Assembly: GCA_903893815.1 (NCBI GenBank)
Contig: CAITNS010000058.1
Span: 1-64,000, forward strand
Length of the DNA stretch: 64,000 nucleotides
From: an uncultured Bacteroidota bacterium
Lineage (GTDB): Bacteria; Bacteroidota; Bacteroidia; B-17B0; Aurantibacillaceae
Direction: 5' to 3'
Shown piece after piece: positions 45,481 to 53,567 of the stretch. The translations under genes were made by a program, and so were the position numbers. Under the pieces are notes generated by a model. The model had not been told where the DNA came from. It saw only the letters and a program-made list of their open reading frames with translations, and ran no database searches. Positions within the stretch are counted from its first letter, which is position 1. Each line of letters starts with the position of its first letter.

Positions 45481-47242
<1,762 letters not shown>

Positions 47243-47267
47243 TCTTCGACTCAAAATATAATTTATA

Positions 47268-47297
47268 AAAACGCCCCGCAGAAATGTGGGGCGTTTT
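47268..47297 (+). terminator. groEL terminator
   Basis: AAAACGCCCCGCA (47268-47280), loop GAAA, TGTGGGGCGTTTT (47285-47297); the stem has one G-U wobble and ends in T residues. A GC-rich stem is unusual in this AT-rich window. Confidence 0.9.
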
Positions 47298-47443
47298 GTT
47301 GCTAAACGTTATAAACTATTTAACAAAAGCGGTTAACAACTCTAAACCAAAAAGTAAATAAGTTGAAAAGTAAACCTGTTAAAAAACGTTGAGGTAATAA
47401 TTGTGTAACATTGTACAAAAATTAATGTCGTAAATTTATATCA

Positions 47444-47562
47444 GTAACCACAACCCGACATCTTAGCTTAAGCGACAGATGGGATACGGGGAGCCATGTC
47501 ACACATATTAGTTAATTTAGTTAATCGAAAAGCTGCTTTTAAAGAGTAGCTTTTTGGTTTTT
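47444..47562 (+). ncRNA. candidate stand-alone small RNA downstream of groEL
   Basis: A promoter-like TTG (47411-47413), 17-bp spacer and TAAATTTA (47431-47438) precede a GC-enriched core at 47450-47505. The core can fold with CCCG (47454-47457)/CGGG (47487-47490) and CATCT (47459-47463)/AGATG (47477-47481); the loop carries the palindrome GCTTAAGC. GACAT (47457-47461) can alternatively pair with ATGTC (47496-47500). It ends in a hairpin AAAAGCTGCT/AGTAGCTTTT (47528-47554) with a T-rich tail. No ORF fits. The neighbouring gene is convergent, so this is not its leader. No known RNA family was recognised. Confidence 0.45.
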
Positions 47563-47568
47563 AAACAT

Positions 47569-47600
47569 ATCGTCATTGCTTCGTGCCTCGCAATGACGAT
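47569..47600. repeat. ATCGTCATTGC inverted repeat
   Basis: ATCGTCATTGC (47569-47579) is the perfect complement of GCAATGACGAT (47590-47600). The reverse reading, CGTCATTGCGAGGCACGAAG, matches a well-known dispersed intergenic repeat found in several bacterial groups. It may also end the minus-strand gene that stops at 47608. Confidence 0.7.
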
Positions 47601-47607
47601 AATGCAA

Positions 47608-48339
47608 TTAAAAATTAAATCCAAAGGTTACGGCGTTTTGTAAATAAAAGTCCTTTCTGTTCGCCATTTTCATTTCTTCGCTGTTTGTTTCGGCAGCAGC
47701 TGTTTCGGCAGTAATGCCTTTAATGCCATTTGAAGAATACACATGTTTCTTGGTCACAAAACAACCAACTGCCAAATTGTAGCCAATGTTAAAACGCTCA
47801 TTGAAATTATATTTTACGCCTACTCCAGCGTTTACCGAAAAGTGTTTTCCAACATTTACACAATTGCGTCGCATATTATCCGATAAGCGGTTGATGCCTG
47901 CACCAACATATACGTATGGAGCTATCTTAGAGTTTTCTTTTAAAAAAATACCATTTGCAAACTTATACTTAACAGCAATGTTTCCAGCAATCATTAAAGA
48001 TCTTAATTCTCCCATACCACGTTCTTCACCCGGACAGCCTGGGCATTTTTGTTCGATAGGAACAATTCGTTTTTTGTCTTCATCTGTTTGGCAATATCCA
48101 AAATGGCCTACGGTACCGCCCACGTTTACATCAAACGACTTCGTTAAATACAAGCCTGCGTTTCCACTAAATCCACCAAAGGCAGTTGTATTGAATTTAA
48201 AAAAGCTATTACCTAAATTGCCACTATAGTGAGAAAGATAAGCGCCTGCTTCAATACCAATTTTGTGGTTTTTGTTTTGTGCAATGGCACTAAATGCAGA
48301 TAATACTACTGCTGCTGAAATTAATAATTGATTTTTCAT
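47608..48339 (-). CDS. outer-membrane beta-barrel porin-like protein
   Basis: A 243-residue exported protein with signal peptide (LLISAAVVLSAFSAIAQ). The mature part is a strand-rich barrel with glycine-aromatic alternation (KIGIEAGAYLSHYSGNLGN, GGFSGNAGLYLTKSFDVNVG, VGAGINRLSDN, FSVNAGVGVKYNFNERFNIG, AVTFGFNF) ending in Phe. A loop contains two closely spaced cysteines (EQKCPGCPGEE), which could bind metal or form a disulfide. There is no OmpA-like peptidoglycan domain. It converges on the candidate small RNA and precedes nothing obvious; function unknown. Confidence 0.75.
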   Translation of the reverse strand: MKNQLLISAAVVLSAFSAIAQNKNHKIGIEAGAYLSHYSGNLGNSFFKFNTTAFGGFSGNAGLYLTKSFDVNVGGTVGHFGYCQTDEDKKRIVPIEQKCPGCPGEERGMGELRSLMIAGNIAVKYKFANGIFLKENSKIAPYVYVGAGINRLSDNMRRNCVNVGKHFSVNAGVGVKYNFNERFNIGYNLAVGCFVTKKHVYSSNGIKGITAETAAAETNSEEMKMANRKDFYLQNAVTFGFNF

Positions 48340-53339: not shown

Positions 53340-53567
53340 GGGTGTGCCGGCGCAAAGAGACAGCGCCGTCGTGCTGCCCGCTTCAATCTTTTGCAAGATG
53401 CAGGCAAAAGGATTTTCGCTCACATCCCTCACACAAGCTTTTTGCATTCAGAAAAATAAATTCTATTTTGAAAGTATAACCGCGTGAGGGATTGTATTGA
53501 AAATCCTTTTACGAAACGAAGTGGAGTAAAAGATTGAAACGAAAGCCCGACCCTCAGGGTCACGCCC
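53340..53567. repeat. 228-bp composite inverted-repeat element
   Basis: Three nested perfect blocks pair across the element: TTCAATCTTTT (53382-53392) with 53528-53538, AAAAGGATTTTC (53406-53417) with 53499-53510, and ATCCCTCAC (53424-53432) with 53484-53492. The outer parts are GC-rich (GGTGTGCCGGCGC; AAGCCCGACCCTCAGGGTCA) unlike the surroundings. It fills the gap between rsmI and the cytochrome gene. The block order resembles a large repeat class in Flavobacteria. Confidence 0.75.

Follow-up and report, generated by a model that had tools for sequence, protein, structure and literature searches.

The gap behind groEL in this genome raises the question of whether an RNA gene of its own lies there and, if so, how such an RNA would act. 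In the window (the whole 64,000-nt stretch of DNA that was analysed), groEL (45605-47242, + strand) is followed by the gap and then by a convergent gene (47608-48339, - strand). The terminator of groEL itself was placed at 47268-47297, and the candidate RNA begins about 150 nt further on. A novel, independent, terminator-ended small RNA had been proposed here in an initial annotation made from the letters alone; this was borne out, structure and sequence both being kept in relatives. The gap had also been described as free of reading frames, which held for the + strand at a length of at least 30 aa; two antisense frames in the window ORF list (47320-47418 and 47517-47624) touch the gap. Transcription would start near 47443, because the -7 promoter box lies at 47431-47438 and such boxes sit at -12 to -5; the accessible text of PMC9723704 gives this position for the TAnnTTTG box of Flavobacterium psychrophilum. 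The features of the locus are as follows.

47310-47410, no strand assigned: upstream stretch with repeated GTTAA/GTTGA motifs (alignment of own-genus copies)
47411-47413, + strand: possible, weak -33 element TTG (sequence reading; at about -32 from the predicted start)
47431-47438, + strand: -7 promoter box TAAATTTA of the Bacteroidota TAnnTTTG type (own-genus conservation; consensus from the accessible text of PMC9723704)
47443-47562, + strand: predicted small RNA of about 120 nt (start from the position of the -7 box, end from the terminator)
47447-47450, + strand: conserved unpaired 5' ACCA motif, with CCA at 47448-47450 (65 aligned copies)
47447-47490, + strand: bulged-hairpin core (sequence and covariation)
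47454-47458, + strand: 5' strand of helix P1 (C CCG A), with partners at 47485 and 47487-47490
47459-47462, + strand: 5' strand of helix P2 (CATC), forming four pairs with 47478-47481
47466-47473, + strand: apical hairpin P3 (GC TTAA GC), both pairs covarying
47478-47481, + strand: 3' strand of helix P2 (GATG; covariation)
47482-47484, + strand: invariant GGA bulge (65 of 65 copies at each base)
47485-47490, + strand: 3' strand of helix P1 (T-A-CGGG), the T pairing and covarying with A47458, the bulged A at 47486 invariant
47491-47522, + strand: variable linker from core to terminator (terminator spacing among copies)
47523-47559, + strand: intrinsic terminator hairpin, with a U-rich tail to about 47562 (sequence; terminator scan of copies)

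The region 47400-47565 folded at -36.2 kcal/mol (z -2.59) and the predicted transcript 47443-47562 at z -2.87; in each case 1 of 200 shuffles folded equally well. Judged from sequence, the candidate is almost certainly a genuine stand-alone RNA gene, and the small RNA is very likely functional. The possible -33 TTG was missing from some own-genus copies in the alignment. The approximately 100 nt before the RNA (47310-47410) were kept alongside it in several own-genus genomes and were missing where the RNA was missing; the GTTAA/GTTGA repeats in this stretch could be binding sites of a regulator.

Structure was analysed in 65 distinct aligned copies (alignment A6). The final alignment excludes L086 and L183 as well as the weak candidates L170 (25.4 bits) and L171 (20.9 bits). 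Counts given out of 56 refer to copies that matched a text pattern for the core in the fetched stretches, which are fewer than the 65 of A6. In A6, 96.8% of cells were paired and double-sided changes were found in 8 of 11 pairs; doubly changed (compensatory) cells numbered 103, against 23.3 after shuffling and no more than 16 with the partner slid by 1-3 columns. Because A6 had been fitted to the model and its copies are related, a tree-aware null was built, in which the substitutions of each column were re-placed on the branches of the tree (300 simulated alignments); the same null was also applied to alignment A4. The top six column pairs of the whole alignment were all pairs of the proposed structure. 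Three of these were never matched in the null (E 0 with 300 alignments), and the others had E values of 0.05, 0.10 and 0.69. The outermost pair (17-63) was without covariation support (E 9.7; unpaired in 17 of 65 copies), and pair 22-54 had too few changes (E 16).

Individual helices followed the same pattern. All four P2 pairs had double-sided changes, with 98.8% of cells paired; the apical P3 pairs occurred as GC in 38 and AU in 21 copies, and as CG in 54 and UA in 6; and the A47458-U47485 pair was exchanged for G-C in 9 of 65 copies. The CCG/CGG part of P1 was near-constant, CGG being kept in 65/65, and is hence uninformative by covariation. The three bases of the 5' CCA were found in 65, 62 and 65 of the 65 copies, the bulged A preceding CGG in all 65, and the spacing from CCA to CCG was 4-5 nt. 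The predicted hairpin design is constant: CCG-R opposite Y-A-CGG, followed by a covarying stem, with the GGA bulge and the bulged A. Both pairings first read from the window are present there as described (CCCG 47454-47457 with CGGG 47487-47490, and CATCT 47459-47463 with AGATG 47477-47481); the part conserved among relatives is CCCG/CGGG and CATC/GATG, and the A-U pair, the GGA bulge and the 5' CCA had been missed. The loop palindrome GCTTAAGC (47466-47473), which had been taken as suited to kissing or dimerisation, is present in the window but occurred in only 10 of 56 copies, and several own-genus copies carry the non-palindromic GCATGAGC in its place.

When the core was folded in isolation, the CCG/CGG helix appeared in the minimum-energy structure of only 30 of 56 copies, which probably points to a partner or a tertiary contact that stabilises the core. 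The CC of the CCA may dock on the GG in the bulge; the result would be an H-type pseudoknot in which the covarying stem is an insertion and the core is kept compact. This docking lies beyond the reach of covariation, because both of its sides are nearly invariant.

The RNA was detected by blastn in 12 of 60 genomes, its own genome among them. A covariance model (R1) of the core from these 12 genomes matched 11 of the 20 genus genomes and 44 of the 87 family genomes. A second model (R2) from 54 copies matched 47 of 87 family genomes. Under stricter filters, which lose weak matches, a class draw of 395 genomes gave 7 matches, all in the own family, and a phylum draw of 395 genomes gave 1 match, the own genome; no match was found outside the own family in these two draws. 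An exact pattern run against 84,980 species genomes was found on 35 contigs, of which 33 were labelled Bacteroidota, one 'bacterium' (L098) and one Lachnospiraceae (L086). The Lachnospiraceae contig (23.6 bits) was judged by eye to be a chance match. As far as sampled, the RNA family is confined to one order-level group of Bacteroidota, the order being represented by one family alone in the genomes searched. All named records with the RNA are metagenome-assembled or uncultured genomes.

The RNA was absent from 40 of 87 family genomes, nearly complete genomes among them, and inspection by eye of the legible groEL 3' flanks of 8 own-genus genomes without a match showed no such module after groEL. 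This clean absence at the groEL flank, together with the 40 genomes lacking the RNA, implies that it is dispensable. A variant group with CCGGC/GGGACACGG (L135, L140, L162) has two RNA copies separated by 0.9 to 3 kb on a single contig, and in most of its copies the motif GCGGTCCGGGATAGCT.CG.AGTAA, or a sequence near it, stands directly before ACCA. A tandem pair of diverged, GC-rich copies about 250 nt apart was seen in L167 (G031:C7).

Transcription signals were examined across the copies. The promoter-like sequence noted earlier stood as the Bacteroidota-type TAAATTTA box; an E. coli-type promoter scan of 47400-47565, with a consensus other than the Bacteroidota type, gave nothing. In the 75 nt preceding the core, TAnnTTT[GA] was found in 28 of 56 copies, against 5.3 by shuffling, and it lay 20 or 24 nt before CCG in 10 of the 10 own-genus copies examined. 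A sigma-54-like site (TGGCAC-N5-TTGC, at least 10 of 12 positions matching) was found within 150 nt upstream in 11 of 56 copies, with 0.05 expected by shuffling and 0.24 in genomic stretches; several of the 11 are at one shared locus, and the independent events are fewer than 11. The site replaces TAnnTTT[GA] in these copies, except for one having both, and no own-genus copy examined reached 10 of 12. These promoters of relatives had escaped the initial annotation. The exchange between vegetative and sigma-54-like promoters leads to testable predictions on the timing of RNA production.

The sigma-54 gene is present in 85 of 87 family genomes, and about 20 of 87 have two, a tally in which gene fragments were included and one genome with a sub-cut-off second match was scored as single. 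Genomes with the second gene carried the RNA more often (17 of 20 against 30 of 67, p 0.002), and the sigma-54-like promoter was likewise associated with that gene (9 of 11 against 8 of 36, p 0.0006); both associations were set aside as too loose, relatedness being uncorrected. The Qrr small RNAs of Vibrio, which need Hfq, are likewise small RNAs possibly behind sigma-54 promoters and in several copies. They differ in that none of the 87 genomes of the present family yielded Hfq, that a sigma-54-like site precedes only 11 of 56 copies, and that there is no homology.

At the 3' end, the hairpin 47523-47559 followed by T-rich sequence upheld the claim of an intrinsic terminator. The hairpin was absent from the list of a generic terminator scan of the window; a strong terminator was found within 130 nt past the core in 54 of 56 copies, against 4 of 56 when shuffled, and these terminators begin 6 to 80 nt beyond the core (median 31). 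Judged by sequence, the predicted RNA has both a promoter and an intrinsic terminator of its own.

Rfam 15 was searched with the whole window at the gathering threshold, and the sole match was a Flavo-1 element at 53474-53556. When 47250-47640 was scanned at E values up to 10, 17 weak matches were returned, all sub-threshold and none centred on the core; they coincide with the groEL terminator or lie elsewhere in the region, and no 6S family was among them. That no known class had been recognised by eye agreed with the scans at both settings. A search of the own genome for RF01685 gave no match, and its control was likewise silent. No description of the RNA was found among the openly accessible literature listed on Bacteroidota motifs, structured RNA candidates, conserved Bacteroidota small RNAs and Hfq, Sphingobacteriales small RNAs, sigma-54 small RNAs and groEL-flanking RNAs. 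The RNA is the first member of a family not listed in Rfam 15, of a kind, the bacterial regulatory small RNAs, that is already known. A tool-free reading of one gap after groEL can in this way reveal a family that Rfam 15 is missing. Flavo-1, Pedo-repair and the other motifs of Weinberg 2010 (accessible text of PMC2864571) are similarly Bacteroidota structured RNA candidates from comparative genomics, and none of them matched the present RNA in the Rfam scans. A passing likeness between the core and the 23S rRNA peptidyl-transferase region was dropped, as the letters concerned vary. The Flavo-1 element (RF01705) scored 44.5 bits against a threshold of 42 and lies about 6 kb from the RNA; Flavo-1 is widespread and its function is described as unclear in the accessible text of PMC9723704. 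In one relative (L004) a stretch resembling Flavo-1 by eye stands immediately behind the RNA.

Hfq (PF17209) was detected in 0 of 87 family genomes; the same model gave matches in 5 of 14 controls. Most of what is understood of trans-acting small RNAs comes from bacteria having Hfq or ProQ, and the present RNA is a strongly covarying family in an order in which Hfq was not detected. The reading we prefer, at a probability of roughly 0.55, is that the RNA would be an Hfq-independent trans-acting regulator with a rigid protein- or target-binding core. A rigid core acting on a protein or on the translation machinery is suggested by analogy to FopS of Bacteroides and its partner RbpB. Transcription would start about 4 nt before ACCA, and the RNA, about 120 nt here and shorter in the shortest copies, would act in trans and without Hfq. 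The core could serve as a platform for an RNA-binding protein or make contact with the translation machinery, and target mRNAs would pair with the 5' end and/or the lineage-specific linker. The placing of the same RNA behind vegetative-type or sigma-54-like promoters in different lineages would fit a regulator whose expression is the input. The conserved architecture (5' CCA, GGA bulge and bulged A) makes a direct search for the partner attractive.

According to the accessible text of PMC11697453, Bacteroides small RNAs including FopS bind the RRM protein RbpB, and FopS combines a conserved single-stranded 5' region with a terminator, has 12-15 copies per genome and a canonical vegetative promoter, and is said to be deposited in Rfam. 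The present RNA resembles FopS/GibS, as described there, in belonging to Bacteroidota, in having paralogous copies in some genomes and in its conserved 5' single strand followed by an intrinsic terminator. It differs in the added covarying bulged hairpin, in its 1-3 copies and in its lineage; the two are set apart by description in that text and by the lack of an Rfam match. Qrr small RNAs are also named in the accessible text of PMC11697453.

The constancy of the bulge and the CCA would be explained by ligand or protein binding no less well than by base pairing, and protein titration and ligand sensing are the main rivals of the trans-acting reading. Under titration, the CCA/GGA/A core would bind and sequester one regulatory or housekeeping protein, like 6S or CsrB-type RNAs, without base pairing. 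The confinement of invariant positions to bulges and the 5' single strand, a linker free to vary and an outer helix marginally stable by itself (30 of 56) speak for this. CsrB-type sponges, however, carry many binding sites against one per RNA here. 6S RNA (including 6S-Flavo, RF01685), although also a small stand-alone RNA found in Bacteroidota, forms one long helix opened by a central bubble, whereas the present RNA has a short hairpin carrying a 3-nt bulge, and its core was without Rfam match, to 6S or otherwise, up to E 10. Titration is possible but rather improbable.

A further, slightly more doubtful proposal is that of a new RNA fold: an H-type pseudoknot with the 5' CCA on the GGA bulge, forming a stand-alone aptamer or protein platform in uncultured Bacteroidota that would be terminator-ended, Hfq-free and driven, depending on the lineage, by vegetative or sigma-54 promoters. 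In a ligand-sensing stand-alone RNA, the ligand state of a pseudoknotted aptamer, with the CCA docked on the GGA bulge, would set the stability or activity of the small RNA. The pattern is aptamer-like, with an invariant bulge, a freely covarying distal stem and a possible H-type topology, but no tie to a gene class was seen and the CC-GG contact is out of reach of covariation. The switch that had been proposed, GACAT (47457-47461) with ATGTC (47496-47500) as an alternative pairing, also failed to hold: it is present in the window but not conserved, since 2 of 56 copies have a complement of the five bases from G47457 in the next 60 nt, with 2.5 expected. A ligand-sensing RNA is considered unlikely.

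The position behind groEL on the same strand could also suggest a cis-acting element, whether leader, attenuator or part of the 3' UTR, that belongs to groEL or to the gene after it. groEL, however, terminates on its own at 47268-47297. The following gene is convergent here and in many mapped loci, which argues against a leader, and beyond the own genus the neighbours are different and vary among genera. A constant position upstream of a same-strand gene was not found in the window and mapped loci, nor was a conserved mutually exclusive pairing among the 56 copies (2 against 2.5 expected), both being traits of riboswitches and leaders. The cis-acting explanation is largely refuted and very improbable, and the statement that the RNA is not a leader stood. 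Its description as lying behind groEL held for most loci of the own genus, 8 of the 10 mapped having groEL upstream in the same orientation within the fetched stretch, but not for the family; a groEL-linked element was ruled out as a family trait by the different neighbours seen in other genera.

A dispersed repeat or mobile element is equally improbable, since the patchy presence of the RNA and its several copies in some genomes, sometimes on one contig 250 nt to 3 kb apart, are set against a single copy in the own genome and 1-3 per genome elsewhere, covariation limited to RNA pairs, a terminator on one strand, and no match in plasmids or phages, the sole viral pattern hit (L183) being rejected as a copy because it lies inside an 1102-aa reading frame.

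Some further observations concern the surroundings of the RNA. A possible chaperone theme was seen among the neighbours, with groEL in the own genus and Hsp20- and FKBP-like neighbours, named by eye from translations, in another genus. Right after the terminator, at 47568-47601, stands a perfect 12-bp inverted repeat (TATCGTCATTGC/GCAATGACGATA), which occurs once in the window and resembles a REP-type repeat. One own-genus genome (G010; L154, L160) has two complete copies of groEL, with 91% and 81% identity to that of the window.
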